From Desulfomicrobium escambiense DSM 10707 (lineage in GTDB: Bacteria > Desulfobacterota > Desulfovibrionia > Desulfovibrionales > Desulfomicrobiaceae), in contig NZ_AUAR01000008.1 in assembly GCF_000428825.1 (NCBI RefSeq), positions 62,001 to 126,000 on the forward strand: 64,000 bases of DNA, given 5' to 3'. Below are positions 22,429 through 46,691 of this stretch, one piece after another. The notes under the pieces are model-generated. The model had not been told where the DNA came from, made no database searches, and worked only from the letters and a program-made list of their open reading frames with translations. A program made the position numbers and the translations under genes. Each line of letters opens with the position of its first letter. Position 1 is the stretch's first letter.

Positions 22429-22659
22429 ATGCTAGCCATCGCAAAAATAACGTCCAAGGGGCAAACCACGATTCCCCAGGCTGTTCGAGACGCTCTCGGC
22501 GTCCGCCCGGGAGACGCCATCGTGTGGGAGGTGAACCGAGACGGTGTGGCCAGGGTCCGCAAGGTCGCACCCCTCGACGAGGAGTACCTGAGCGCTGTGG
22601 AGGCCGGACTTTCCGAATGGAACTGCGCCGAAGACGAGGAGGCGTACCGTGATCTGTGA
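22429..22659 (+). CDS. AbrB/MazE-like antitoxin
   Basis: 76 residues. The N-terminal swapped-hairpin DNA-binding domain is evident in AKITSKGQTTIPQAVRDALG followed by VRPGDAIVWE. The acidic C-terminal tail (DEEYLSAVEAGLSEW) would wrap the toxin. Its last 11 bp overlap the toxin gene. It should neutralise the toxin and, with it, repress its own promoter. Confidence 0.88.
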   Translation: MLAIAKITSKGQTTIPQAVRDALGVRPGDAIVWEVNRDGVARVRKVAPLDEEYLSAVEAGLSEWNCAEDEEAYRDL

Positions 22660-23005
22660 GCGATTCGACGTGGTTCGCGTCCCTTTCCCCTTCACGGACC
22701 GGATGGCCGTCAAGAACAGGCCCGCCCTGGTGCTTTCGGACACGGATGTGTTCAACGCGCCAAGCGGACACGCCGTCATGGCCATGATCACCTCGCTGGC
22801 CAATGCCCCATGGCCATGCGACTGCCCCATCCTGGATCTTGAATCCGCCGGCCTGCCCGCCCCGTCAAAAGTGCGCCTCAAGCTCTTCACTCTGGATCTT
22901 CGGCTCGTGCGCGGGACCCTGGGCCGATTGTCGGGCCGGGATGAATCCGCGGTGCTGGCCATGCTCACTGCCGCCTTGGCGTGCCCTGAGCCGCCAAAAA
23001 AATAG
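22649..23005 (+). CDS. MazF/PemK-like mRNA interferase toxin
   Basis: 118 residues of the CcdB/PemK fold: RFDVVRVPFPFTDRMAVKNR with RPALVLSD is the family N-terminus, and SKVRLKLFTLDLRLVRGTLG the central strands. Such toxins cleave mRNA at short sequences. ATG 22649 lies inside the antitoxin frame, with GAGGAGG upstream. The stop codon overlaps the T run of an opposing terminator. Confidence 0.87.
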   Translation: MICERFDVVRVPFPFTDRMAVKNRPALVLSDTDVFNAPSGHAVMAMITSLANAPWPCDCPILDLESAGLPAPSKVRLKLFTLDLRLVRGTLGRLSGRDESAVLAMLTAALACPEPPKK

Positions 23006-30264: not shown

Positions 30265-30532
30265 ACCCAACTTTGCGGTAAGGAACGGCGAGCCGTCCGG
30301 TTGAGAGGAAACCCGTCCCGGGGAAGCAGTGTACCGGATGCACCTTTTTGACACACCGCCGACACGGACGGATGACCCAAAGTGATACACAGATTCCCCC
30401 TAACTCCCCAGTTTTCGGGACTTGGGATATCTTTTAAGCAGATTCAATGCCATAGTCCCCGGAACAGGCGCTTGTCCAGCCCCGGCCCTGTTCCGGACAG
30501 CGGCCGCGACAGCCGGCACTGGCGGTTTGAGG
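30265..30532. other. Upstream region of the hdr-flx operon
   Basis: No gene is supported. It contains a sigma-54-like element (30437-30452, minus) and the terminator of lpd at its right end. No further operator is obvious. Confidence 0.5.
30437..30452 (-). promoter_or_regulatory. Possible sigma-54 promoter of the hdr-flx operon
   Basis: The minus strand reads TGGCATTGAATCTGCT: GG and GC are exactly 10 bp apart as needed for a -24/-12 element, and TGGCA and TGC match. It would leave a leader of about 160 bases before hdrC. The TTGC box is imperfect. Confidence 0.35.
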
Positions 30533-30578
30533 GAAAAAATGCATTTCCGGGGGCATGCCCAAATCGGCATGCCCCCGG
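30533..30578 (-). terminator. Terminator of the sulfotransferase-lpd operon
   Basis: On the minus strand CCGGGGGCATGCC pairs perfectly with GGCATGCCCCCGG (13 bp, 6-base loop) and is followed by AAATGCATTTTTT. It lies just after lpd and separates this operon from hdrC. Confidence 0.85.
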
Positions 30579-30595
30579 ACGTGATGACGCGGGGC

Positions 30596-32008
30596 CTAGA
30601 GCAGGTGCGCCGTTTCGAAGATCCCTTCCGCCAAAGTGGGATGGGCGTGGATGGTCTTGGCCAGGTCCTTGGCCGTGGCTCCGAGCTGCAGGGCCAGGGT
30701 CGGTTCGGCGATGATGTCCGAAACGTGCGCGCCGGCCAGGTGCGCGCCCAGCAGCTTGCCGCTGTCGGCGTCGACGACGAGCTTGAACACGCCGGCCAGT
30801 TCGCCCATGGCCTGGGCCTTGCCCAGTTCGCGGAAGTTGCTCTGGGGGCAGGTCACGTTGAAGCCTTTCTCCCGCGCCTGGGCCTCGGTCAGACCCACCG
30901 TGGCCACTTCGGGCGAGGTGAAGACCGCCGCCGGAACCGCGGAGTAGTCCATGGCCTCGGACGCGCCCAGGCAGTTTTTCACCGCCACCATGCCCTCCAC
31001 CGCCGCCACGTGGGCCAGCATGATCCGCGCAGGACCGAGCACGTCACCCACGGCGTAGATGCCCGGAACGGAAGTTTCCAGCCGCGCGTCGGCCTTGATC
31101 CAGCCGCGCTGGTCCGTCTCCACCCCGGCCCCGGCCAGTCCCAGGCCCGCGGTGTTGGGCACCCGGCCCACGGCCACCAGGACCACGTCGGCCTCCAGCA
31201 CGCTCTCCTTCTGTGCGGACGCGGGAAGATCCTTGACGAAGGGGGAGGGCCCGAGGGTCACCTGTACGCCGGTTGCCGTCACTTCCGCCTTGGACGCCGT
31301 GCGGGCCAGCTCGCAGCCGATGCCGCGCTTCTTCATCTCGCGCTGGATGAGCTTGCTCAGGTCCGCGTCGATGGACGGGACGGGCAGGATGCGGTCCAGG
31401 CCTTCCACCACCGTGACCTTGGAGCCCAGGGCCTGGAAGATGAAGGCCAGCTCGCAGCCGATGACGCCGCCGCCGACCACGAGCATCCGGCTCGGGATGG
31501 TCTTAAGTTCCAGGGCGTCGTCGCTGGTGATGATGTGCGTGTGGTCCACGGGCAGGGTCGGCAGGTTGAGGGTGCTCGATCCCGTGGCGATGATGACCTT
31601 GTCCCCCGCCACTTCCTGCACGGCGCCGTCGGCGCCGTGCACGCGCACCAGGCCCGCGCTCACGACCTCGCCCCGGCCGCGCAGGAGCGTGACCTTGAGC
31701 TTGGCGCAGGTCTTTTCCAGACCGCCGCGCAGGATCTCCGAAACCTTGTTCTTGCGGGCCACGATGGCCGGCATGTCCGGCCGGGCCTCGCCGCCGCCGC
31801 TGATGCCGAACTCGGCCAGACGGTGGGCCGTCTCCAGGGCCTCGGCCGAGGCCTTGAGAGTCTTGGTCGGGATGCAGCCCCAGTTCAGGCAGGTCCCGCC
31901 CATGTGGGCCGCTTCGACAAGGGTGACCTGCGCCCCGGCCTTGGCCGCGGCGAATGCGGCCGTGTACCCGCCGGGGCCGCCGCCGATGATGGTGATGCGT
32001 TGCGACAT
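30596..32008 (-). CDS. lpd: Dihydrolipoyl dehydrogenase
   Basis: 470 residues of the disulfide oxidoreductase family. FAD binding GGGPGGYTAAFAAAKAG, redox disulfide in GGTCLNWGCIPTK, NAD domain VVGGGVIGCELAF and the C-terminal catalytic HAHPTLAEG are all present. It reoxidises dihydrolipoamide with NAD. It follows a lipoyl carrier gene by 115 bp, while no glycine decarboxylase or 2-oxoacid dehydrogenase genes are near, so its partner is likely the GcvH-like protein of this operon. GAGGAGG precedes ATG 32008. Confidence 0.95.
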   Translation of the reverse strand: MSQRITIIGGGPGGYTAAFAAAKAGAQVTLVEAAHMGGTCLNWGCIPTKTLKASAEALETAHRLAEFGISGGGEARPDMPAIVARKNKVSEILRGGLEKTCAKLKVTLLRGRGEVVSAGLVRVHGADGAVQEVAGDKVIIATGSSTLNLPTLPVDHTHIITSDDALELKTIPSRMLVVGGGVIGCELAFIFQALGSKVTVVEGLDRILPVPSIDADLSKLIQREMKKRGIGCELARTASKAEVTATGVQVTLGPSPFVKDLPASAQKESVLEADVVLVAVGRVPNTAGLGLAGAGVETDQRGWIKADARLETSVPGIYAVGDVLGPARIMLAHVAAVEGMVAVKNCLGASEAMDYSAVPAAVFTSPEVATVGLTEAQAREKGFNVTCPQSNFRELGKAQAMGELAGVFKLVVDADSGKLLGAHLAGAHVSDIIAEPTLALQLGATAKDLAKTIHAHPTLAEGIFETAHLL

Positions 32009-32123
32009 GGCAACCTCCTCGTGAGTGGATTGACTCCGGGCGACAGGGCGTCCCGGTTTGCAGAATCGTTCCCGGACCGGCCCGCAGAGTCGGCCCGGGA
32101 ACAGGGAGGGAAACAGAGAAAGA

Positions 32124-32510
32124 TCAGGCCGATACGAGCTGGGCGTACTGGGCGGCCGTGATGGTCGCCTCGGACGCGTCGTCGGCCGTGATGCGCACCA
32201 GCCAACCGGCGCCGTACGGGTCGGAGTTGACCAGCTCGGGCGTGTCGCTCAAGGCCGCGTTCACCTCCACCACGGTCCCCGAGAGGGGGATGATGGCCGG
32301 GGACACGACCTTGGCCGACTCGATCTCGGCACAGGACACGCCCTGGGCGAAATGCGCGCCCGCTTCGGGCAGGTCGATGAAGATGACCTCGCCCAACTGG
32401 TCCTGGGCGAAATCGGTGATGCCGATGACGAAGGAGCCGTCACCGGCCTCCTTGGCCCAAAGGTGTTCGGCGTGGTAACGGCGGTCGTCGGGATAGGTCA
32501 GTGCGGACAT
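32124..32510 (-). CDS. GcvH-like lipoyl carrier protein
   Basis: 128 residues with the hammerhead lipoyl fold: AEHLWAKEAGDG, IGITDFAQDQLGEVIFIDLP, and Lys67 in AEIESAKVVSPA as the lipoylation site. Sequence fits glycine cleavage H protein, but gcvP and gcvT are absent. The neighbours are lpd, a glutaredoxin fusion and a sulfotransferase-like gene, which points to a non-glycine role, perhaps like the lipoate-binding proteins of sHdr sulfur oxidation (inference by context). AAGGAGG precedes ATG 32510. Confidence 0.85.
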   Translation of the reverse strand: MSALTYPDDRRYHAEHLWAKEAGDGSFVIGITDFAQDQLGEVIFIDLPEAGAHFAQGVSCAEIESAKVVSPAIIPLSGTVVEVNAALSDTPELVNSDPYGAGWLVRITADDASEATITAAQYAQLVSA

Positions 32511-32535
32511 GTCGGTTCCTCCTTGGGTGGAAAGA

Positions 32536-33357
32536 TCAATGCGCCTCGGGCTTGCGGATCTCGGCCTTGACCAGAGACGCGCGCACCTTGGAGCGGTACG
32601 GCAGCAGGGCCTGATCTTCGAGCTTTTCCAGCCCCTGAACCTGCTGCGCCTCGATGAACACAGGCAGCATGCGGTCCCCGCAGGCCTCGAAGACCATCTT
32701 CGCGGCCTCGGCAACCTCGACCGGCGTGACGCGGGTCATGGCCCCGCCCTCTCCCGCGTAGGCGGACACGACAAGGCGGATCAGGTGATCCTTGTGCCCG
32801 CGGGTCAGGGCGATGCTTCGCTTCAGGTCTTCCTGGGCGATCTCGCCGCCGGCGATGGCCGGGTACAAAGCGGCAGGAGCGACCACGTCGAGGACCACGC
32901 GGCTGACGTGCCCTTCGTCCAGCACGCGCTGCAGCAGGTCGGCGCGGCGGCCGTCGGCATGCAGCTCCACGGTCAGGCCGCCCTTGGCCAGCAGGCGCAC
33001 CAGGGTCACGAAGTTGTCCTCCTGCCCGGCGGGACAGGCCGAAACGTTGAGGCCCGAAATCCAGCCGTGCAGCAACTCGCTGCGCGTCACGCAGGCTTCG
33101 AGGACCCGGCCCGACAGCAGGTAGGCCAGGATCTCGCCCGTGCCCTGTTTGATGACCGTGCCGTCGTCGAAAATGGGGAATTCCACGCCTTCGGGGTTGC
33201 GGTAGATGGCGGAACGGTTGGCGCGGTAGTAGGCGTTGAAGATGTCCTTGTCGGCCTTGAAATCGTAGGCCGTGTACTCCTGTCCGCGCTCGGCCAGGAA
33301 TTCCTTGACGATCTTGCAGCGCAGGCAGTCGGGGGCGGTGTAGAGGGTGATGCTCAT
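32536..33357 (-). CDS. Glutaredoxin domain fused to a NrdG/radical-SAM-like domain lacking the cluster motif
   Basis: 273 residues. Residues 1-80 are glutaredoxin-like: LYTAPDCLRCKIVKEFLAER has the CxxC pair, and EFPIFDDGTVIKQGTG the cis-Pro region. The remainder (about 95-260) reads like the barrel of anaerobic NTP-reductase activators (LVRLLAKGGLTVELHADG, VLDEGHVSRVVLDVVAP), yet no CxxxCxxC is found, so it should not bind the radical-SAM cluster. Function unknown; a thiol-redox partner of the lipoyl carrier is possible. ATG 33357; downstream gcvH-like gene is 25 bp away. Confidence 0.65.
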   Translation of the reverse strand: MSITLYTAPDCLRCKIVKEFLAERGQEYTAYDFKADKDIFNAYYRANRSAIYRNPEGVEFPIFDDGTVIKQGTGEILAYLLSGRVLEACVTRSELLHGWISGLNVSACPAGQEDNFVTLVRLLAKGGLTVELHADGRRADLLQRVLDEGHVSRVVLDVVAPAALYPAIAGGEIAQEDLKRSIALTRGHKDHLIRLVVSAYAGEGGAMTRVTPVEVAEAAKMVFEACGDRMLPVFIEAQQVQGLEKLEDQALLPYRSKVRASLVKAEIRKPEAH

Positions 33358-33411
33358 GGTCTTTTCTCCGAAAGAGGCGCGGGAGAGGGCGACCCCTCCC
33401 CCGCTGCCGGG

Positions 33412-34860
33412 TTATTTGTCATCGTCGTCGACGGAGGCCACGCACAGGGCGTTGCTGCCGCCGTAGGGCACGCAGCCGTCGACGGTCACTTCCTTGGCAC
33501 GGTCGCCCAGGGCTGCCGCGCCGGGAACGCGGAAGGAGAACACGTCCAGGGGCCTTATGGGCGTCTCGACGGGCTTCTTGACCTGCGGAACCCACTCGTA
33601 GGGCACGCGGTAGGCGCGGTACGTCATGTTCATGGGAACGTGCTTGCCCTTGTAGGGCGAGATGAATTCCCACACGATCTCGTGGTCAGGGGTGACCTCG
33701 AAGACGCGACCGTCGGAGCCCTCGGTGATCAGGGTGTTGCCGTTGGGCAGGCGCTGCATGCCGCTGATGAAGGGGCTGTAGAAGCGGTTGCTGTCCATGG
33801 GGAAGAGGAAGCCGGCTTCGCTGGGCGTGTACTGCCAGACGATCTTCATGGCCACGGGGTCGATCTCGAGTACCCGGGAGTAGTCGCGCAGGGCGGCCTT
33901 CACGCCCGTGGGGGCGCCGGGATTGGGCACGTCGTAGCCGCCCCATCCGCCGTTGTCGAAGATGAGGATGTTGCCGGCGCCGGGCAGCCCGGCCGGAATC
34001 ATGTGGCAGTGGTGCTGGCCGATGATCCAGCCGATGGCCTTGAGCTCTGGCGTGGAGTCGTAGTCGGGGCCCAGCTTCCAGACGACCTTGCCGCTCTTCT
34101 TGTCGATGATGAAGGTGATGTTGGCTTCGCGGCCGTCGACGATGATGTTGTCCGGGTGGAAGCGCTGGTCGCCGGCGTCGTACCACTTGTTGGGCCCCAG
34201 GACGGACATGGAGTTGATGTGCATCCAGTCGCCCATGCCCTCGGGCTTGGTCGGGCGGTAGTTGGGATTGCGGGACAGGGTGTTCTTGGGGCCTTCGCGG
34301 AAGCCGAACTCCTCGAAATGCTCGTGGCAGTTCCATTCCCAGACGATCTCGCCTTCCCAGTTCACTTCAAGGATCAGGTCGTCCAGGAGCAGCTTGTCGG
34401 AAATGGCCGAATTGCGGGCGTTGCGGTGGGCCAGGACCAGGGTGTTGCCCGAGTCGGTCTTGGGTTCCATGCCCGGGGCGTAGTAGCCGACGGGGTTGCC
34501 CTCGCGCTGGAAATCGTGATGGTAGCGCGCCATCCAGCGGCCTTCATAGCCCGGGTCCTCGATGAACTCGTTCTGGTCGAATTTCCAGACGACCTTGCCT
34601 TCCCAGTCGATCTGGACCACGTCGACGCCGTCCTGGACGCTGAACTTGCCGTCGCGACGGCCGCGGCTGGACATCAGGTAGCCGCCGGGGAAGATCTTGT
34701 TGGGCATGCCGAGCACGCCCTTCCAGACGTTGTGTTCACGGCCGTTCATGTCCATGAGCACGGCGCCCACTTCCTGGGCCTGAAAAATGGTGAGACCGTT
34801 CCAGCATTTTTCGGGATCGTAAACCGTGACGCCGGTGGGATAGATGGTTGGGTGACCCAT
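33412..34860 (-). CDS. Arylsulfotransferase-family protein, cytoplasmic type
   Basis: 482 residues with the repeated blade pattern of the arylsulfotransferase beta-propeller: DVVQIDWEGKVVWKFDQNEF, LILEVNWEGEIVWEWNCHEH and ITEGSDGRVFEVTPDHEIVW, each ending in a V-W motif. Histidine-rich loops (ARYHHDFQ, GQHHCHMIPAG) could be catalytic. Family members move sulfate between phenolic compounds by a His intermediate; most are periplasmic, but no signal peptide is seen here. First gene of the operon with the Grx fusion, lipoyl carrier and lpd. ATG 34860 has GAAGGAG upstream. The true substrate is not shown by sequence. Confidence 0.72.
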   Translation of the reverse strand: MGHPTIYPTGVTVYDPEKCWNGLTIFQAQEVGAVLMDMNGREHNVWKGVLGMPNKIFPGGYLMSSRGRRDGKFSVQDGVDVVQIDWEGKVVWKFDQNEFIEDPGYEGRWMARYHHDFQREGNPVGYYAPGMEPKTDSGNTLVLAHRNARNSAISDKLLLDDLILEVNWEGEIVWEWNCHEHFEEFGFREGPKNTLSRNPNYRPTKPEGMGDWMHINSMSVLGPNKWYDAGDQRFHPDNIIVDGREANITFIIDKKSGKVVWKLGPDYDSTPELKAIGWIIGQHHCHMIPAGLPGAGNILIFDNGGWGGYDVPNPGAPTGVKAALRDYSRVLEIDPVAMKIVWQYTPSEAGFLFPMDSNRFYSPFISGMQRLPNGNTLITEGSDGRVFEVTPDHEIVWEFISPYKGKHVPMNMTYRAYRVPYEWVPQVKKPVETPIRPLDVFSFRVPGAAALGDRAKEVTVDGCVPYGGSNALCVASVDDDDK

Positions 34861-35072: not shown

Positions 35073-35969
35073 TCAAAACATTTTGATCAGCTTGAATTCC
35101 GCCCGCCAGTCCTCGGTCAGGCTCATCTTCTCATATTCCCTGTAGGCCGCACCGAGAAGTGCGCCGCCGAAGGTCACGCCGTATTCAGGCAACTTCAGGT
35201 TGAACTTGGGACCGGCGTAGAGGGTCTTGGCATCGTTTTCGAGGTCTTCCCCGTCGGCCTCGTCGGCCTGCGTCCATTCGTAATATCCTTCAAGGCCCAG
35301 ATCGAGACGCGTATTCAAGGCGTAGGCGTAATGGCCGTTGACGCGCAACCGATCGCCCTTGGTGACGTCCTTGTAGCCTTCCGTGTAGATGAGGTAGCTC
35401 ATGTCGGTCTCAAGGCGGTGGGAGCCGATCATCCAGGTCGCGCCCAGCCCGACCAGGCCGCCCCAGGCTCCGGTGCCTATGTTGTTGGACCCGACCTCGC
35501 CCGTGGGGACGAGAACGCCCAGATCCCAGGCCAGGTTCAGGGGAGCGCCCTTCTTCTGCGACGCGAACTGATTGTGCAGGATGGCGGTGGTGTCCCCCAG
35601 GCCGCCGGACCAGGCGTCGTTGCGTCCTTCCGTCTCAATGGTATTGAGCATGAAAGGCGTGGCCGTGCGCACGTCCCAGCCCTCGGCGATGCCGTAGCGA
35701 GTCTTGAAGACGATGTTGTGGCTGAACACTTCCCGGTCCAGTCCGTCCTCCTCGGACGTGTGCAGGTACCACTGATCCTTGTGGGCATAGCGGTAGTTCG
35801 CCACGGCAGAGAACTTGCCTACGGGAAAACCCAGGCCGCCCGCGCCATGATTCACGCCCACCGGGCCGGCAGGAACCGGAGCGGAGGCGTTTTGCGCGGC
35901 GGTACTCGAAACGGAGGGCAGGATGAAGCAACAGGCCAGTAACAGAATCGACAGAACTTTCTGACGCAT
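35073..35969 (-). CDS. Outer-membrane channel of the phenol-degradation MetA family
   Basis: 298 residues. The first 26 are a signal peptide (KVLSILLLACCFILPSVSS). The rest is a series of amphipathic beta strands with aromatic girdle residues, as in the MetA-pathway family of outer-membrane barrels (VFKTRYGIAEGWDVRTATPF, LNTRLDLGLEGYYEW), ending in Phe. Such barrels import hydrophobic or aromatic compounds. I chose ATG 35969 with GGGAGA 5 bases upstream. It stands alone, with a Crp-type site 120 bp upstream. The 210-bp gap to the sulfotransferase gene holds only site A. Confidence 0.75.
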   Translation of the reverse strand: MRQKVLSILLLACCFILPSVSSTAAQNASAPVPAGPVGVNHGAGGLGFPVGKFSAVANYRYAHKDQWYLHTSEEDGLDREVFSHNIVFKTRYGIAEGWDVRTATPFMLNTIETEGRNDAWSGGLGDTTAILHNQFASQKKGAPLNLAWDLGVLVPTGEVGSNNIGTGAWGGLVGLGATWMIGSHRLETDMSYLIYTEGYKDVTKGDRLRVNGHYAYALNTRLDLGLEGYYEWTQADEADGEDLENDAKTLYAGPKFNLKLPEYGVTFGGALLGAAYREYEKMSLTEDWRAEFKLIKMF

Positions 35970-36008
35970 GTGAATCTCCCTAGGATGTCCCGGTTGAAGA
36001 AAACGCAA

Positions 36009-36342: not shown

Positions 36343-37047
36343 CTATTCGTTCTGGCGCACCAGTTCATCGAACCGTTTCCTGTCCAAAACGTAGACCTCG
36401 TTGCGCGAATACGGACCCAGGACACCGGACTTCTCCAGTTCGCGAAGGGATTTGTTCAGCGTGACCCGGTGCACGCCCAAGAGGTTGGCCAGGTCCTGCT
36501 GGTTGAGGCCGGGCGAAACGACCAGGGGGCCTTTCGCCGGGGCGTCGGCCGGCTGGCGCAGGTGCAGATACTTGCAGATGCGGGACGGCAGGTCGTCGAG
36601 GCTCAGACTGACAGCCTGATTGCTCAACACCCGGACCTTGAGGGCGAGGGACCGGAACAGGGCCAGCATGAGGTCGGGATGGGCGGGCAGAATCTGAGAC
36701 AGGACGCACTGCCGGGCAAAGGCGTAAACCGTGCAGTCCTCGGCGGCGACCATGGCGCTGCGGGCCGGGAGCTCGTCGAAAAACGGGGTTTCGCCGAACA
36801 GGGAGTCAGGGCCTATGGCCCAGATGATCTTTTCCCGGCCGTCCATTGTTGTCCGCAACAGCCAGATCTCTCCCCGTTCCAAATAATAAAGGGAACCGGC
36901 GTCAGACCCGTGGGGAGAGACGTGGGTTCCCTTGGCGAATTTCATCCTCCGCCCCTGGGACAGGACCTTGCGCCAGCATTCCGCCACGGATGGGATGCGG
37001 GAAAACTCCAGTTCATTGAGTCCGCCATCGATTTTTTCCGCTGTCAT
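36343..37047 (-). CDS. Crp/Fnr-family transcription regulator
   Basis: 234 residues. The cyclic-nucleotide-binding-type barrel occupies about 45-145 (YYLERGEIWLLRTTMDGREK, LFGETPFFDELPARSAMVAA); there is no Cys cluster motif of Fnr. The long dimer helix leads to a winged helix (about 185-225): LNQQDLANLLGVHRVTLNKS. The recognition helix keeps the Arg that in E. coli Crp precedes Glu181, but has Val in the Glu position. The effector is unknown. I chose ATG 37047, with GAGGAGT upstream. It is divergent from the transporter and next to the channel gene, and probably binds sites A-C. Confidence 0.88.
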   Translation of the reverse strand: MTAEKIDGGLNELEFSRIPSVAECWRKVLSQGRRMKFAKGTHVSPHGSDAGSLYYLERGEIWLLRTTMDGREKIIWAIGPDSLFGETPFFDELPARSAMVAAEDCTVYAFARQCVLSQILPAHPDLMLALFRSLALKVRVLSNQAVSLSLDDLPSRICKYLHLRQPADAPAKGPLVVSPGLNQQDLANLLGVHRVTLNKSLRELEKSGVLGPYSRNEVYVLDRKRFDELVRQNE

Positions 37048-37167
37048 CGGCCACTCCTCGGGCTCACGTGCGCAGGATTGCGGCTTGTCGCGGGAAGATT
37101 CCCGACCGCGCCCGGATTCCGAATGCGGAACGTGCACGCGCCATCCCTGGCCTGGTCGTGAAAAAAA

Positions 37168-37185
37168 TGACAATATTCGATGTCA
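37168..37185. promoter_or_regulatory. 18-bp inverted repeat in the regulator-transporter gap
   Basis: TGACA-ATATTCGA-TGTCA, a perfect 5-bp inverted repeat with 8-bp spacer, 12 bp from Crp-type site C. It may be a second operator, possibly for autoregulation. Confidence 0.4.
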
Positions 37186-37196
37186 ACCTTGAAAAA

Positions 37197-37239
37197 TGTG
37201 GCGTTTGTTACAGCACGGTTGCTGCCGCCCCCGTATTCT
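37197..37239 (+). promoter_or_regulatory. Crp-type site C with class II promoter of the DASS transporter
   Basis: TGTGG-CGTTTG-TTACA at 37197-37212; a TATTCT -10 box at 37234-37239 would set the start near 37246, placing the site centre at -41.5, the class II activator position. The transporter ATG follows at 37271. Confidence 0.65.
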
Positions 37240-37270
37240 CCATATAACATTTTTCCAAAGGAGAGTTCCC

Positions 37271-38674
37271 ATGGCCGCAACACAGTCTATGTTCGAAAAA
37301 GGTACCCTGGTCAAATGGGCCTTGAGCTTCGCCGTTCCTCTCGCCGTCTTCGCGGCCATGCCCGTGGACGGCACCGTCGTGACCAAACCCATGGCCATGT
37401 TCCTGGCCATCACCGCCTGGGCGGTCACGGTCTGGGCCACGGACATCATCAACGAAATCGCCGTGGGCCTGGCCCTGCCCGTGCTGTATGTTGTCTTCTG
37501 CGGCGTGAAGCAGCAGGCCGTGTACACGCCGTGGCTGTCCGAAGTGCCCATCATTGTCATCGGCGGTTTCGCCCTGGGCAAGATTCTGCAGGACACGGGC
37601 CTTGGCAAACGCATCGGGCTGACCTGCGTGCGGGCCATGGGCGGCAGCTTTGTCGGCGCCCTCTGGGGCCTGACCCTGGCGGTCTTCATCGTCGCCCCCC
37701 TGGTCCCGGCCGTGACGGGCAAGGCGGCCATTTTCTGCGCCATCGCCATCAGCCTGTGCGAAGCCCTGGATTTCAAGGAGAAGAGCCGCGAGGCAACGGC
37801 GGTCCTCATGGCGGCCTGTCTGGCCGTCATGTCCACGAAGATCTGCTACCTGACCGGCGGGGCCGACACGGTCCTGGGCATGGGCCTGGTGGAAAAGGTC
37901 ACGAACACCAAGACCACATGGATGGAATACGCCTACCACAACTTCCTGCCCGGCACGCTGTACACGATCATGTCCCTGTTGCTGGTCACCTTCCTGCTGC
38001 CGTCCAAGGTGGACCGCAAAACCCTGCAACCGGTCCTGGAAGCCAAATTCAAGGAAATGGGCCCCGTCACGCGGGAACAGAAGACCGCCTCCATCCTCAT
38101 GCTCCTGACCCTGGTCCTGCTGGCCACGGACAAGCTGCACGGCGTGGCGGCGGGCTTGGTGCTCATCCTGATCACCTTTGCGGCCTTTCTGCCGGGCATC
38201 AATCTTCTGAACGGGGCCCGGTTCGGAAAAATCAATTTCGCCCCGCTGTTCTTCATCATGGGCTGCATGACCATCGGCAGCGCCGGCGGAGCCCTCAAGG
38301 TCACCGAATGGGTCGCCAACATGCTGCTCCCGTATTTTCACGACATGAGCAGTTCCTCCGCCAGCGCCACGGCCTACGTTTTCGGGGCGGCGGTCAATTT
38401 CCTTCTCACCCCGCTGGCCGCCATCACGACCATGACCTCGCCCCTGGCCGAACTCGGCCTCAAGTTGGGAATGGACCCCCGTATGCTCTACTACTCCTTC
38501 GCTTACGGACTGGACAATATCATCTTCCCTTACGAGTACGCGGTGCCCCTGTATTTCTTCAGCACGGGCTACATCCTTTTCACGGACTTCATCAAAGTCA
38601 TGGCCGTGCGCATGGTCCTTGCGGGCTTGTTCGTCGCCTTCATCGCCATCCCGTTCTGGAAATTCGTTCTCTAG
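37271..38674 (+). CDS. DASS-family sodium:anion symporter
   Basis: 467 residues, about 11-12 hydrophobic segments. The family repeats are seen in FLAITAWAVTVWATDIINEI, IIVIGGFALGKILQDTGLGK, and the C-terminal half FFIMGCMTIGSAGGALK with AVNFLLTPLAAITTMTSPLA. DASS/SLC13 carriers move dicarboxylates, sulfate or related anions with sodium across the inner membrane. AAAGGAG precedes ATG 37271. Divergent from the Crp-family regulator. The paired outer-membrane channel suggests import of an organic anion rather than plain sulfate (inference). Confidence 0.88.
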   Translation: MAATQSMFEKGTLVKWALSFAVPLAVFAAMPVDGTVVTKPMAMFLAITAWAVTVWATDIINEIAVGLALPVLYVVFCGVKQQAVYTPWLSEVPIIVIGGFALGKILQDTGLGKRIGLTCVRAMGGSFVGALWGLTLAVFIVAPLVPAVTGKAAIFCAIAISLCEALDFKEKSREATAVLMAACLAVMSTKICYLTGGADTVLGMGLVEKVTNTKTTWMEYAYHNFLPGTLYTIMSLLLVTFLLPSKVDRKTLQPVLEAKFKEMGPVTREQKTASILMLLTLVLLATDKLHGVAAGLVLILITFAAFLPGINLLNGARFGKINFAPLFFIMGCMTIGSAGGALKVTEWVANMLLPYFHDMSSSSASATAYVFGAAVNFLLTPLAAITTMTSPLAELGLKLGMDPRMLYYSFAYGLDNIIFPYEYAVPLYFFSTGYILFTDFIKVMAVRMVLAGLFVAFIAIPFWKFVL

Positions 38675-41994: not shown

Positions 41995-43251
41995 TCATCC
42001 GCAGCCCGTTCCCATCCCTGCGCAGCCGGCCTTGTGGTGGCGGGTTCTGTAGCGGGTGATGTCCCCGCCCTGGAAATGCTCTGCAACAATCCCGGCAATG
42101 AGCCCGTTGCATTCCAGAACAGAAATCCCGTGTTCGCCCAGGACCTGCTTGGGCTGCTTGCCCGCCGCTTCGACCAGGACGAGGGAACAGTCGTGCATGA
42201 TTTCCGCCAGCCTGTGCCAGCGGTCCGGTCCGCAGCCAACCTCCGGCGCGGCCCGCTCCTCGATCATGCGCGCGCCCTTGCCCTGAGGCGCCCAAATCTG
42301 GAAGGACGGCGCCTCGCCCAGATGCATGTTGACGAGCATGCCTTCACGGGTGGCCACGGCCACATAGGGTTTGGCGTTCTTCTTACCGCCACAGGCCAGA
42401 GCGTTCAGGGTCGGGATGAGCTCGCTGGAGCGGTCCGAGCACAAGAGGCCCACGGCGTCGGCCCGGCAGCGACGGCAATGGGTCATCTGGGGGATCATTT
42501 GGCCGTTTTTCGCCCGCAGTTCGTGAACCAGTTCCTTCGAGGGCTCCTCCATGTCCGCAAACGGTGTATCGCCCGTGGGGTGCAGGGGGATGAGATTCTG
42601 GATGTCGGCCCCGAGCTCCGCCGCCACCCTGGCCACTTCGGCCAGATGCCCGTCGTTCACGCCGGGGATGATGATGCTGTTGACCTTGACGGTCACGCCT
42701 TTGGCCTTGAGCAGGCGGATGGATTCGAGCTGCCGCTCCAGGAGCAGTCGGGCCCCTTCCACACCCCGGTACACGACCTTGCCGACGCGCACCCAGGAAT
42801 AGATCTTCGCCCCGATCTCGGGGTCCACGGCGTTCATGGTCACGGTGACATGGGTCACGCCAAGCTCTACAAGCCTGTCCACATGCTCGGGCAGGGCCAA
42901 GCCGTTGGACGACAGGCAGTAGAGCATACCGGGGTATTTGGCGTTTATGCGCTCGATGGTGGCGATGGTCTTCTGGGCCTCGGCCATGGGATCGCCGGGC
43001 CCGGCGATGCCGACCACGGTGATGCGCGGCTCCTTCTTCAGCACCTCGTCCAGGTACTCCACGGCCCTGTCCGGCGGCAGCACGGCGCTGGTCACGCCGG
43101 GACGGGACTCGTTCACGCAGTCGTACTTGCGGTTGCAGTAGTTGCACTGGATGTTGCAGCCAGGCGCCACGGGCAGGTGCACACGGCCGCAGGAACCGGA
43201 GGAACTCTTATTGAAACAGGGATGCTTGGATCTGTCTTTGGCTTCGGACAT
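41995..43251 (-). CDS. nifB: NifB, radical-SAM FeMo-cofactor precursor synthase with NifX-like C-terminus
   Basis: 418 residues. The radical-SAM site is CNIQCNYC in APGCNIQCNYCNRKYDC; ESRPGVTS, VGIAGPGDP and LCSDRSSELIPTL are NifB signatures. After about residue 300 a NifX/NafY-type cofactor-binding domain follows (VAVATREGMLVNMHLGEAP). It makes the 8Fe-9S-C NifB-co from [4Fe-4S] clusters and SAM. GGGAGG precedes ATG 43251. A palindromic repeat separates it from nifN. Confidence 0.96.
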   Translation of the reverse strand: MSEAKDRSKHPCFNKSSSGSCGRVHLPVAPGCNIQCNYCNRKYDCVNESRPGVTSAVLPPDRAVEYLDEVLKKEPRITVVGIAGPGDPMAEAQKTIATIERINAKYPGMLYCLSSNGLALPEHVDRLVELGVTHVTVTMNAVDPEIGAKIYSWVRVGKVVYRGVEGARLLLERQLESIRLLKAKGVTVKVNSIIIPGVNDGHLAEVARVAAELGADIQNLIPLHPTGDTPFADMEEPSKELVHELRAKNGQMIPQMTHCRRCRADAVGLLCSDRSSELIPTLNALACGGKKNAKPYVAVATREGMLVNMHLGEAPSFQIWAPQGKGARMIEERAAPEVGCGPDRWHRLAEIMHDCSLVLVEAAGKQPKQVLGEHGISVLECNGLIAGIVAEHFQGGDITRYRTRHHKAGCAGMGTGCG

Positions 43252-43304
43252 GGTGTCCTCCCTTGTATGTTGGCGCGTCTGAGACGCTTATGAAATCCGG
43301 AGAT

Positions 43305-43453
43305 GGATTCCCGCCTTCGCGGGAATGACATCGGGGTGAAGCGCAATGTTCGCGCATTGATCGGGAATCCGCCAAGGAACCAGGCCCAGCCTGCCGCATC
43401 TTCCACGCGTCATTCCCGCGAAGGCGGGCTTGTGCCCGCCAGGGTAAATCCAT
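43305..43453. repeat. Inverted-repeat element between nifN and nifB
   Basis: GGATTCCCGCCTTCGCGGGA plus ATGAC (43305-43329) is inverted at 43409-43428 (GTCATTCCCGCGAAGGCGGG). The core CATTCCCGCGAAGGCGGGAA is a dispersed intergenic repeat seen in many proteobacteria. The 150-bp insert widens a spacing that is otherwise close in this operon. Confidence 0.65.
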
Positions 43454-43485
43454 GCTTTTCAACCCCGGCACTTCAAAAAATCCGC

Positions 43486-44838
43486 CTACAAATACCCATA
43501 CCCCACCGGACATTCGTCCTGACTCTTCTCCAGGACCGCGTTGACCAGCCTGTCGTAGAGCGCCAGCGCCCCTTCGTAGCCGACGTGCAGGATGCGCTGG
43601 CCGCCGAAGCGGTCGTGGATGGGGAAGCCCACGCGGATGAGCGGGATGTTCTTCGCCCGGGCCAGCTTGTAGCCCTTGCTGTGGCCCACCAGCAGGTCGG
43701 GGTTCAACTCGGCGGCCTCGTCCTCGATGTCCTTGAAGTCCGCGTCGTCGCGGATGACCGGCATGGTCTGGCAGACCTCGGCCAACGCGTTCGTCACGGC
43801 GGCCTTGAACCGGTCGCTTTTGGCGCCCGTGGCCACCAGGACCGGCTGCACGCCGATCTCGCCCAGGAAGGAGCACAGGGCGACGACGAAGTCCTCCTCG
43901 CCGTAGACCACCGCCCGCTTCCCGAAAATGTACTTGTGCCCGTCAACCATGGCGTCGAGCAGGCGGCCGCGGTCGAAGGCGTCCTTGGCCGGCATGTCGC
44001 AGGACGCGAACTCGGCCAACACGTCCATGAACTGGTCCGTCGCCCGCAGGCCGATGGGCATGGCGGTCCGCCGCGCCGGCACGCCGAACTTGCGCTCCAG
44101 CACCCCGGCGGCGGACTCGGGCAGGCCGCCCGACATGCCGAACTCCACCGTCCCGGCAGCGCCGCCCATGGCCCGTATCTCGGCCACGGGGGTGCCACCG
44201 TCGGGCAGGGAGTGGTAGTCGTCCCAGATCACGCCATCCATGGTCTCGGACAGGTCGGGCAGCATGGTGAAGCGCACGCACGCCCGCTCGCCCAGGGCTT
44301 TGAGGAAGCGGTAGTCGGCCGGCGAGAGGAAGCCGGGCAGCAGGTTCACCCCGCCATGGGCCCTGCCCTTGTCCTTGACCACCTGATCGGCCAGGGAGCG
44401 CACGGCGGCGTGCCAGCCCTCCATGTGCGTGCCCGAGTAGCTCGGTGTGGACACGTGGACCAGTTCGGGCAGGGACAGGTCGGAGAACTCCTCGCGGAAC
44501 TCGTTCAGGTAGCGCCCCACGTCGTCGCCGATGGTCTCGGTCAGGCAGGTCGTGGCCACGCCGACCAGGGACACGTCGTACTTGCGCATGACGTTCAAAA
44601 TGCCCTTCTTCAGGTTCGGCCCGCCGCCGTAGACCGCGCTCTTCTCGCCCAGGGCCGAGGAGGCGATGTCCACGGGTTCGCGGTAGTGGCTGATGATGTA
44701 GCGGCGCATGTAGGTCGCGCAGCCCTGGGAGCCGTGCAGGAAGGGGACGGCGTTCTCGATGCCCTTGAAGACCAGGGCCGCGCCCATGGGCGTGCACATC
44801 TTGCAGGCGTTGGTGGTGGATACGTAGTTCTCAGCCAT
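43486..44838 (-). CDS. nifN: NifN, FeMo-cofactor scaffold subunit
   Basis: 450 residues of the nitrogenase component 1 family: TNACKMCTPMGAALVFKG, then FLHGSQGCATYMRRY, then VGVATTCLTETIGDD. It pairs with NifE to mature NifB-co into FeMo-co. The start overlaps the nifE stop by 8 bp. Confidence 0.95.
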   Translation of the reverse strand: MAENYVSTTNACKMCTPMGAALVFKGIENAVPFLHGSQGCATYMRRYIISHYREPVDIASSALGEKSAVYGGGPNLKKGILNVMRKYDVSLVGVATTCLTETIGDDVGRYLNEFREEFSDLSLPELVHVSTPSYSGTHMEGWHAAVRSLADQVVKDKGRAHGGVNLLPGFLSPADYRFLKALGERACVRFTMLPDLSETMDGVIWDDYHSLPDGGTPVAEIRAMGGAAGTVEFGMSGGLPESAAGVLERKFGVPARRTAMPIGLRATDQFMDVLAEFASCDMPAKDAFDRGRLLDAMVDGHKYIFGKRAVVYGEEDFVVALCSFLGEIGVQPVLVATGAKSDRFKAAVTNALAEVCQTMPVIRDDADFKDIEDEAAELNPDLLVGHSKGYKLARAKNIPLIRVGFPIHDRFGGQRILHVGYEGALALYDRLVNAVLEKSQDECPVGYGYL

Positions 44839-46219
44839 TGACGGCCTCCTTGGCGGCGCAGGCCGCGCGGGCGGGGGATCGGCGGGGCATGAACCTCCAG
44901 ACCGGGCTCATGACCGAGGCGTGGATCTCCCTGGCGAAATTGTACATGCCGACGAACCCTTCCAGGGCGATCTTGCGCTCGTGGTTGTGGTCGCAGAAGC
45001 CCACGCCCAGCTTGTAGGCGATGGGGCGCTCCTTGACGCCGCCGACAAAGACGTCGACGTCCTTCTCCTTGATGAACTGGGCCAGCTCCAGGGGGTTGGC
45101 GTCATCGACGATGATGGTGCCGGGGTCGGAAATCTCGGCCAGTTCCTTGTAGTCCTCCTCGGTTCCCGTCTGGGAGCCCACGACCACGACCCGCATCCCC
45201 AGGTGCCGGAAGGCCTTGATCAGCGAAAAGGCCTTGAAGGACCCGCCGACGTACATGGCGACCTTCTTGCCTTCCAGGTCCGTTCTGAGCTCGGCCAGCT
45301 TGGGCATGAGATCCGAAAGCTCCGCGCGGACGAGTTCCACGGTCCTGGACTTGATGGACGGGTCATGCCCGGCGAAAAAGTCGGCCACCTTGTACAGGGA
45401 TTCGGCCATGTCCTCCACGCCGAGGTAGGATACCCGGTGGAAGGGCGTGCCGTATTTTTCCTGCATCATCTTGGCGAGTTCCATGGTCGCCCCGGAGCAC
45501 TGCACGAGATTCAGCGCCGCGCCGTGGCAGCGCCGGATGTCGTCCACGCGGCCGTCGCCCGTGACGTTGGCCACGACTTCCACGCCCATCTTGCGGAAAT
45601 ATTCGCGCACGATCCATGTCTCGCCCGCCAGGTTGAAGTCGCCCAGGATGTTCACGCTCATGGGGGAGATGCCCGCCGTGTCGCCCGTGCCGACCAGCCG
45701 GAACATGGCCTTGCAGGCCGCGGTGTAACCTTCGCGCTTGTTGCCCTTGAAGCCCTCGCTCATGACCGGCAGGACCGGGATGCCCGTGTCGGCCGAGACG
45801 CGGCGGCAGACGGCCTCCATGTCGTCGCCGATGAGGCCGACGATGCAGGTCGAGTAGACGAAGGCCGCCTTGGGGCTGTGCAGTTGGATCAGTTCGCGAA
45901 GGCTTGCTTCGAGCTTCTTCTCGCCGCCGAAAATGACGTCCATCTCCTGCAGGTCCGTGGAGAAGCTCAGGCGGTGCAGCTGCGGGCCGGAGGAGATGGC
46001 GCCGCGGATGTCCCAGGTGTAGGTGGCGCAGCCGATGGGGCCGTGCACGAGGTGCAGGGCGTCGGCTATGGGATAGAGCACCACCCGCGAACCGCAGAAC
46101 ACGCAGGCCCGCTGGCTGACCGCGCCGGCAAGGCTCGGGCGGTTGCAGGCCATGGCGAAGGGCTCTTCGCCGATGCGGTGGACCTGGCTTTTTCGTTCAT
46201 CGAGTATGGTCTGGTTCAT
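44831..46219 (-). CDS. nifE: NifE, FeMo-cofactor scaffold subunit
   Basis: 462 residues: QRACVFCGSRVVLYPIADAL, HGPIGCATYTWDIRGA, STDLQEMDVIFGGEKKLEAS and VYSTCIVGLIGDDMEAVC. It forms the NifEN scaffold. ATG 46219 has AAGGAG upstream; the frame stays open 28 codons earlier without a start context. Its first 23 bp overlap the end of the GNAT gene. Confidence 0.95.
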   Translation of the reverse strand: MNQTILDERKSQVHRIGEEPFAMACNRPSLAGAVSQRACVFCGSRVVLYPIADALHLVHGPIGCATYTWDIRGAISSGPQLHRLSFSTDLQEMDVIFGGEKKLEASLRELIQLHSPKAAFVYSTCIVGLIGDDMEAVCRRVSADTGIPVLPVMSEGFKGNKREGYTAACKAMFRLVGTGDTAGISPMSVNILGDFNLAGETWIVREYFRKMGVEVVANVTGDGRVDDIRRCHGAALNLVQCSGATMELAKMMQEKYGTPFHRVSYLGVEDMAESLYKVADFFAGHDPSIKSRTVELVRAELSDLMPKLAELRTDLEGKKVAMYVGGSFKAFSLIKAFRHLGMRVVVVGSQTGTEEDYKELAEISDPGTIIVDDANPLELAQFIKEKDVDVFVGGVKERPIAYKLGVGFCDHNHERKIALEGFVGMYNFAREIHASVMSPVWRFMPRRSPARAACAAKEAVNG

Positions 46220-46691
46220 GGAGTGCTCCTTGGTGTGCGGCCGTCGATCGGTGCGTGATGCGCAGGCAGACGAGCTGCGTGCCGCAAAAACCGTGTTTGC
46301 CATAAAATTCAGTTGCTTTTGTGTTATTTTTGTCAGCCAGAAGCTGCACGCGGGTCATCCCCTGTTCCCCGGCCCAGGCCAGGGCGGCGTGGAGCAACCG
46401 GGAACCGATGCCCCGACCCCGACGCTCTTCGGCAACCACCAGATCCTCCATGAGACCCACCGTACCGCCCTCGGCCGTGGAGATCACAGTCTGGATGGAA
46501 ACCATGCCCACCACCGCTCCATCCTCATCGGCGACCAGAAGGCAGGCTCCCGCACGAAGGAGAAGCGACAGCCCGCGCATCTGCGCCTGCTCGTCGGCCG
46601 CGAAGTCGGCTTCAATGGCAAAGAGATGCCCGAGCAGGCCGGTCATGGCCGCAATGTCTTCAGCCTGGGCGTGTCGGATGGTGATGGGCAT
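46197..46691 (-). CDS. GNAT-family N-acetyltransferase inside the nif operon
   Basis: 164 residues. The acetyl-CoA motif RRGRGIGSRLLHAAL and VGMVSIQTVISTAEGG with LMEDLVVAEE are typical. Substrate unknown. It sits between the ferredoxin and nifE and overlaps nifE, so it is co-transcribed with the cofactor genes. ATG 46691; no strong ribosome site. Confidence 0.82.
   Translation of the reverse strand: MPITIRHAQAEDIAAMTGLLGHLFAIEADFAADEQAQMRGLSLLLRAGACLLVADEDGAVVGMVSIQTVISTAEGGTVGLMEDLVVAEERRGRGIGSRLLHAALAWAGEQGMTRVQLLADKNNTKATEFYGKHGFCGTQLVCLRITHRSTAAHQGALHEPDHTR

Follow-up and report, generated by a model that had tools for sequence, protein, structure and literature searches.

The arylsulfate sulfotransferases (ASSTs) that act independently of 3'-phosphoadenosine-5'-phosphosulfate (PAPS), such as AssT of Escherichia coli (Protein Data Bank entry 3elq) and Cpz4 of Streptomyces (9kf4), have a beta-propeller fold and the residue set H252/H356/R374/H436. 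In a different type of system, a lipoylated protein and dihydrolipoyl dehydrogenase (Lpd) reduce Ohr, and lipoyl-dependent reduction of Ohr/OsmC proteins is described for other bacteria (PMC4486171). LbpA proteins of the sHdr sulfur-oxidation pathway have two cysteines, one near the N terminus and one near the C terminus (PMC6067878). S-sulfocysteine is reduced by glutaredoxins, among them NrdH, with cysteine and sulfite as the products (PMC3528435). Genes related to these systems were found together in one operon of Desulfomicrobium escambiense DSM 10707, within a stretch of 64,000 nucleotides (contig NZ_AUAR01000008.1, positions 62,001 to 126,000; referred to here as the window). The operon encodes an ASST-like protein, an unannotated protein of 273 amino acids for which the name GrxN was coined here, a GcvH-like predicted lipoyl carrier and Lpd. 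The best explanation of these four genes, with an inferred chemistry, is that they form the core of an uptake-and-desulfation module of Desulfobacterota. No published description of a set consisting of a sulfotransferase, GrxN and a lipoyl carrier was found in a literature search that covered few subscription journals.

The sulfotransferase and GrxN

The four genes follow one another in tandem, all on the minus strand, from 34860 to 30596, and the run ends at a terminator.

33412..34860, minus strand: module-type ASST, a predicted cytoplasmic arylsulfate-sulfotransferase-like beta-propeller of 482 amino acids (PF05935, predicted fold, residue mapping, conservation among 43 homologues)
32536..33357, minus strand: GrxN, an NrdH/glutaredoxin-like domain followed by a radical-SAM-like barrel, 273 amino acids (family matches, AlphaFold2 model, fold matches, invariant C11/C14)
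32124..32510, minus strand: GcvH-like predicted lipoyl carrier of the relay type, 128 amino acids, with Lys67 in AEIESAK (PF01597, tree, residue table)
30596..32008, minus strand: lpd, dihydrolipoyl dehydrogenase (TIGR01350; redox invariants across two divergent Lpd types)

An earlier note on this DNA had placed the GcvH-like gene and lpd at the end of a sulfotransferase operon without gcvP or gcvT. The coordinates, Lys67 and the Pfam and NCBIfam families all agree with this, and neither gcvP nor gcvT was found in the 64-kb window. The same note gave the sulfotransferase a minor place, which has to be revised: the ASST is the core partner of the module, and the gene left unnamed there, encoding GrxN, marks the set more specifically than any other.

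Analysis of the ASST sequence revealed a match to PF05935 (Arylsulfotrans) with an E value of 7.6e-24 and 84.8 bits against a curated cut-off of 24.2 bits. The predicted structure (mean predicted local distance difference test [pLDDT] score, 71.9; predicted template modeling [pTM] score, 0.81) was compared with solved structures, which gave a Z score of 31.1 for Streptomyces Cpz4 (root mean square deviation [rmsd] of 2.9 over 329 aligned residues) and of 23.3 for E. coli ASST, with unrelated propellers at about 17 to 20. Solved ASSTs share about 22% overall identity with the protein. A profile alignment with the E. coli enzyme (E value, 6e-17) mapped its H252, H356, R374 and H436 onto H115, H214, R244 and H283, all of which are invariant among 43 distinct core ASSTs. 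In the E. coli enzyme the sulfuryl group is carried by H436, and H436N mutants occur among its solved entries.

The module-type ASST differs from the described PAPS-independent enzymes in its predicted cytoplasmic location, in two additional invariant cysteines and in its linkage to GrxN, a lipoyl carrier and Lpd. No export signal of the kind that sends the E. coli enzyme to the periplasm was detected in the ASST, in which the N-terminal maximum of hydropathy is 1.18, compared to 3.1 and 2.8 in outer-membrane proteins of the loci. The additional cysteines, Cys178 and Cys473, are present in all 43 core ASSTs and absent from all 12 paralogs of the same or related genomes. In the model, Cys473 sits on a C-terminal tail of low confidence, which is probably flexible. 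A second, distant ASST class (about 28 to 35% identity) was observed near the module at L044:12451-13764, L046:6069-7358, L060:13029-14099 and L128:13351-14517 (L and G numbers are our labels for loci and genomes). Some copies of this class have a signal-peptide-like start, and Cys178 and Cys473 are missing in all of them.

The AlphaFold2 model of GrxN (pLDDT 90.8) revealed an N-terminal domain resembling NrdH (1h75; Z score 10.8, rmsd 2.4, 73 aligned residues), with the CxxC site C11-L-R-C14, and a C-terminal barrel resembling a domain of the pyruvate formate-lyase (PFL)-activating enzyme (3can; Z score 11.8). The cysteines of the C-x-R-C site are invariant among homologues. Because the cluster motif of radical S-adenosylmethionine (SAM) enzymes, CxxxCxxC, is absent from the GrxN sequence and only the barrel fold is present, this motif test places GrxN outside the radical SAM enzymes. 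GrxN shares an NrdH-like CxxC domain with glutaredoxin and NrdH (PMC3528435), and sulfite release from an S-sulfonate is proposed for the module as well, but it differs from these proteins in having a radical-SAM-like barrel, from which the cluster motif is missing, and in being tied to one operon type. UXX-star selenoproteins were considered as relatives of GrxN and rejected, since only weak N-terminal similarity below the cut-off was obtained. Searching plasmid records for GrxN gave zero matches.

The predicted lipoyl carrier and Lpd

The GcvH-like protein matches GCV_H (PF01597) at 2.7e-37 and scores above the NCBIfam GcvH equivalog cut-off (130.9 versus 115.85). It shares the overall fold with the H protein of glycine cleavage and keeps the ES.K motif with the lipoyl-type Lys67, which is invariant among the module homologues. 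Glu14 of the pea H protein is taken here to contact the aminomethyl-lipoyl group. In the carrier, Leu17 stands at the equivalent position, which is occupied by Glu in 10 of 10 canonical GcvHs and in none of 38 relay-type proteins (Leu, Thr, Ile or Val instead). The tree of 48 H-type proteins, comprising 10 gcvP-linked or reference GcvHs and 38 others, separated the canonical from the relay-type proteins with moderate support (90/90) and united 22 rows in a main module clade (100/99). A topology joining the module proteins with the canonical GcvH of the same genome was rejected (approximately unbiased test, p-AU 0.003), and a single origin of all 25 module GcvH rows was neither demonstrated nor rejected (p 0.24). 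The host genome (3.78 Mb, 100% complete) carries canonical glycine cleavage genes elsewhere, gcvH-gcvPA-gcvPB on contig C9 and gcvT on contig C10, in contrast to the module carrier, which has no gcvP or gcvT nearby. An ordinary role in glycine cleavage was rejected because of these gcv genes at other sites in the genome, together with the residue table and the tree.

Comparison with LbpA (PMC6067878) revealed a shared setting, a GcvH-like lipoyl protein in a sulfur context. The two-cysteine signature was not found in the residue table of the GcvH-like protein, whose lone cysteine, Cys60, lies beside the lipoyl Lys, and none of the sHdr-cluster genes sLpl(AB) and LipS1/S2 occurs in the operon. 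By these tests the carrier is neither an ordinary GcvH nor an LbpA, because it has no Glu14 equivalent, stands on a separate branch and lacks the two-cysteine signature. An LbpA/sHdr identity was rejected because of the missing signature and the limitation of Hdr adjacency to one genus.

The earlier note had suggested a lipoyl-based sulfur or redox relay. The part that stands is a lipoyl redox relay outside glycine cleavage, which is supported by the second gcvH together with gcvP/gcvT, the p-AU value and the absent Glu14 equivalent. The outcome that the note had named as refuting did not occur, since the genome has another gcvH and grouping of the carrier with it is rejected. The links drawn to sHdr-type LbpA and to HdrABC-Flx are not supported, the former because the two-cysteine signature is absent and the latter because Hdr genes adjoin in only 3 of the 46 loci, which belong to a single genus. 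A dedicated lipoate ligase, which the note had put forward as a check, is absent from the operon.

Lpd scores over the TIGR01350 cut-off (472.5 versus 408.8 bits) and keeps the redox cysteines C40/C45 as well as H456/E461. In one family of loci its place is taken by a distantly related Lpd-like protein (about 35% identity) that retains the redox cysteine pair and the His-Glu pair. In G023 (L051), a lipoyl synthase gene passing the lipA cut-off is located between the genes for GrxN and Lpd. No lipA over the cut-off was found in the host genome by profile search, and its only lplA, about 15 kb before the window, is canonical (TIGR00545, 391 bits); the host lipoate is therefore probably salvaged from outside. 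The LplA gene at C8:46018-46599 (L133) adjoins E1-type dehydrogenase genes.

OsmC-Lpd-GcvH operons were observed in Desulfovibrionales at L073, L074, L075, L076, L079, L082 and L085 (e.g., L076:1949-5890), and the L076 operon additionally contains LipB/LplA-type and LipA genes. The GcvHs of these operons also lack the canonical Glu, and the operons represent self-contained lipoyl redox relays. Like the Ohr/OsmC lipoyl peroxidase relay and OsmC-Lpd-GcvH-LipB-LipA operons in general, the module has a putative dedicated NADH-Lpd-lipoyl thiol relay outside the 2-oxoacid and glycine complexes, and the GcvH is of the same non-canonical type, but the terminal partner in the module would be the ASST with GrxN. 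A GcvH/Lpd pair in the role of a dithiol-reductant relay has a precedent in the OsmC-Lpd-GcvH operons of relatives, in agreement with the lipoyl-dependent Ohr/OsmC reduction described for other bacteria (PMC4486171).

Conservation and surroundings of the module

Co-occurrence was determined in 150 relatives, and neighborhoods were analyzed at 46 GrxN loci with a distance of 6 kb. The survey was confined to Desulfobacterota, and the contig scan for GrxN, which used patterns from close relatives, matched only Desulfovibrionales-type loci. GrxN was detected in 28 of the 150 relatives, all of which also encode a core ASST (as partial genes in G019 and G023); an ASST without GrxN occurred in 2 genomes. 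Module-type GcvH was present in 23 of the 28 GrxN genomes, and all 23 genomes with this GcvH have an ASST. Within 6 kb of GrxN, the 46 loci contain an ASST (41 loci), a transporter of the DASS, MFS or TRAP type (39), Lpd (29), GcvH (28) and a Crp-type regulator (27). In G006 and G012, the ASST is distant from the GrxN-GcvH-Lpd genes but is retained in the genome; the tie between ASST and GrxN is therefore more than positional.

The module was found in Desulfovibrio, Mailhella and Bilophila assemblies, several of which are listed as host associated, and in Desulfomicrobium and Solidesulfovibrio. More distant Desulfobacterota revealed the order TRAP-ASST-GcvH-GrxN-Lpd (L131 and L135), the order ASST-Lpd-GrxN (L136) and GrxN and ASST with TRAP genes (L129 and L130). 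The type of importer varies between DASS, MFS and TRAP while ASST and GrxN persist; in one branch, the importer is an MFS protein resembling aromatic-acid symporters. Dozens of related genomes show the same arrangement, which is not due to chance. That ASST, GrxN and an anion importer form a conserved module, with GcvH and Lpd in most loci, is well supported.

The operon of D. escambiense is flanked by the following features.

30546..30579, minus strand: terminator-like stem-loop after lpd (14-pair stem with 11 G-C pairs, T-rich tail; RNA fold z score -3.5)
35073..36008, minus strand: outer-membrane channel-like protein, start codon uncertain (PF13557, 2.6e-14; also beside the module in L033, L034, L035 and L051)
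36343..37173, minus strand: Crp/Fnr-family regulator, start codon uncertain (family match; the Crp gene noted above for 27 of 46 loci)
37196..38674, plus strand: DASS-family anion symporter, divergent from the Crp/Fnr regulator (PF00939, 1.9e-29)

The DASS symporter is the probable importer of the module substrate, and the outer-membrane channel-like protein is probably part of the uptake path. Downstream of the terminator, an HdrCBA-Flx operon on the same strand as lpd begins with HdrC at 30390. The earlier note had described a terminator in front of an Hdr operon of a different type, and both points were borne out by the 14-pair stem-loop and by HdrA, which is closest to the HdrA2 model and not of the sHdr type. 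HdrCBA-Flx also follows lpd in L033 and L035. Only 3 of the 46 loci have Hdr genes next to the module, and these three are from Desulfomicrobium. The HdrABC-Flx operon does not belong to the module.

Proposed desulfation and alternative explanations

Sulfate reducers spend ATP on sulfate activation. We propose that the module carries out reductive desulfation of an imported sulfate ester and supplies sulfite to DsrAB, a reading to which we give an even chance. The ASST fold and active site, the glutaredoxin-like dithiol, the carrier fold with its Lys, the redox center of Lpd, the uptake genes and the sulfite reductase of the host are assigned by homology, and the chemistry is inferred. An organic sulfate ester, probably an aryl sulfate, would be imported, here by the DASS symporter. 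The cytoplasmic ASST would take over its sulfuryl group at His283, the counterpart of His436, which has this role in the E. coli enzyme. The acceptor would be a thiol rather than a phenol, with Cys178, Cys473 of the tail, the GrxN dithiol and the dihydrolipoyl arm as candidates, and the product would be an S-sulfonate. An adjacent thiol of GrxN or of the lipoyl arm could then expel sulfite, in the manner of the S-sulfocysteine reduction by glutaredoxins and NrdH (PMC3528435), and end as a disulfide, and Lpd would re-reduce the lipoyl arm with NADH, closing the cycle. Gene linkage and the conserved redox residues are the reasons for viewing the GcvH-like protein and Lpd as a putative dedicated NADH-to-dithiol relay. 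The sum of these steps would be R-OSO3- + NADH + H+ -> R-OH + sulfite + NAD+, and the sulfite would pass to DsrAB without ATP activation; dsrA is present in the host genome. The lipoyl synthase gene inside the G023 module and the invariant Lys67 suggest that the predicted carrier is lipoylated, in line with this proposal. The conserved grouping of a lipoyl carrier and Lpd with a sulfotransferase, a glutaredoxin-like protein and importers suggests that sulfate reducers with the module could take sulfur from imported sulfate esters without the usual ATP cost. The broader claim, a new route of sulfidogenesis by cytoplasmic reductive desulfation with a lipoyl/glutaredoxin thiol acceptor, NADH as the reductant and no ATP-dependent sulfate activation, is tentative and falls just short of an even chance. 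If true, obtaining sulfite straight from sulfate esters would spare the cost of sulfate activation, the module could yield hydrogen sulfide from aryl sulfates of hosts or plants, protein-bound lipoic acid would have a further role, and the unannotated GrxN family would have a function.

Several observations weigh against reductive desulfation. Known ASSTs sulfate phenols and do not release sulfite. The confidence of the ASST model is moderate, with a pLDDT below 50 in the C-terminal tail, and the co-occurrence of GrxN and ASST (Fisher test, 2e-28) is inflated by kinship. In 18 of the 46 loci GrxN has no GcvH beside it, although contig ends cut some of these loci; four of the genomes concerned, G084, G097, G119 and G149, carry a relay-type GcvH elsewhere (L083, L084, L086 and L088). 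The incomplete genome G019 (77% complete) has a single GcvH (canonical or relay type), and in G023 and G201 the ASST was found only as a C-terminal part, next to a GrxN that is intact. The proposal is built on homology, linkage and models, with carrier lipoylation and ester use as predictions. C-terminal fragments of core ASST were located at L051:7754-8464 and L132:10343-10579; these fragments may have arisen by decay or assembly error or may be a genuine short form.

The ASST fold and catalytic residues would also suit an ordinary cytoplasmic sulfotransferase that exchanges sulfuryl groups between imported aryl sulfates and other phenols or metabolites, with GrxN, GcvH and Lpd keeping its cysteines reduced, and the closest solved relative, Cpz4, is a Streptomyces sulfotransferase of antibiotic synthesis. 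We consider this unlikely, as a dedicated lipoyl carrier, Lpd and sometimes a lipoyl synthase (L051) would be heavy machinery for enzyme upkeep, and the uptake genes and the sulfite-reducing host point to catabolism. No more probable is that the propeller acts on another imported anion, such as a sulfonate or an aromatic acid, and that the lipoyl relay reduces a different intermediate. The low identity to solved ASSTs (about 22%), the broad anion specificity of the transporter families and the two module-specific cysteines, which are absent from the tested paralogs, are consistent with this, but the catalytic residues known from E. coli ASST are conserved without exception at all four positions.

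The OsmC-Lpd-GcvH(-LipB-LipA) operons of relatives, with a GcvH of the same non-canonical type, allow the GcvH-like protein and Lpd to be seen as a general thiol/peroxide defense relay to which the ASST is adjacent only secondarily. This is improbable, since no OsmC/Ohr gene is among the module genes of the window and the module-type GcvH forms its own clade (22 rows, 100/99) and occurs only in ASST genomes (23 of 23). The view of the earlier note, an LbpA-like carrier working with the neighboring HdrABC-Flx in sulfur metabolism, takes its strength from HdrCBA-Flx following lpd on the same strand here and in L033 and L035; with adjacency restricted to 3 of 46 loci in one genus, an intervening terminator, an HdrA2-like instead of an sHdr protein and no LbpA cysteines, it is highly improbable. 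The least probable explanation is that the GcvH-like gene and lpd are surplus glycine cleavage genes whose place in the operon is a coincidence: the score above the NCBIfam GcvH cut-off (130.9 versus 115.85) is set against a separate gcvH-gcvPA-gcvPB and gcvT, a rejected tree placement with the genome's own gcvH and a Glu14 equivalent that each of the 10 canonical proteins has but none of the 38 relay-type proteins retains.

Two further features of the window were recorded. A PemK/MazF-like toxin gene lies at 22649-23005 on the plus strand (PF02452, 7.8e-12). Nitrogen-fixation cofactor genes are located near the module at 41995-46303 on the minus strand and encode a NifB-like radical SAM/FeMo-co protein and two nitrogenase-component-1-type proteins.

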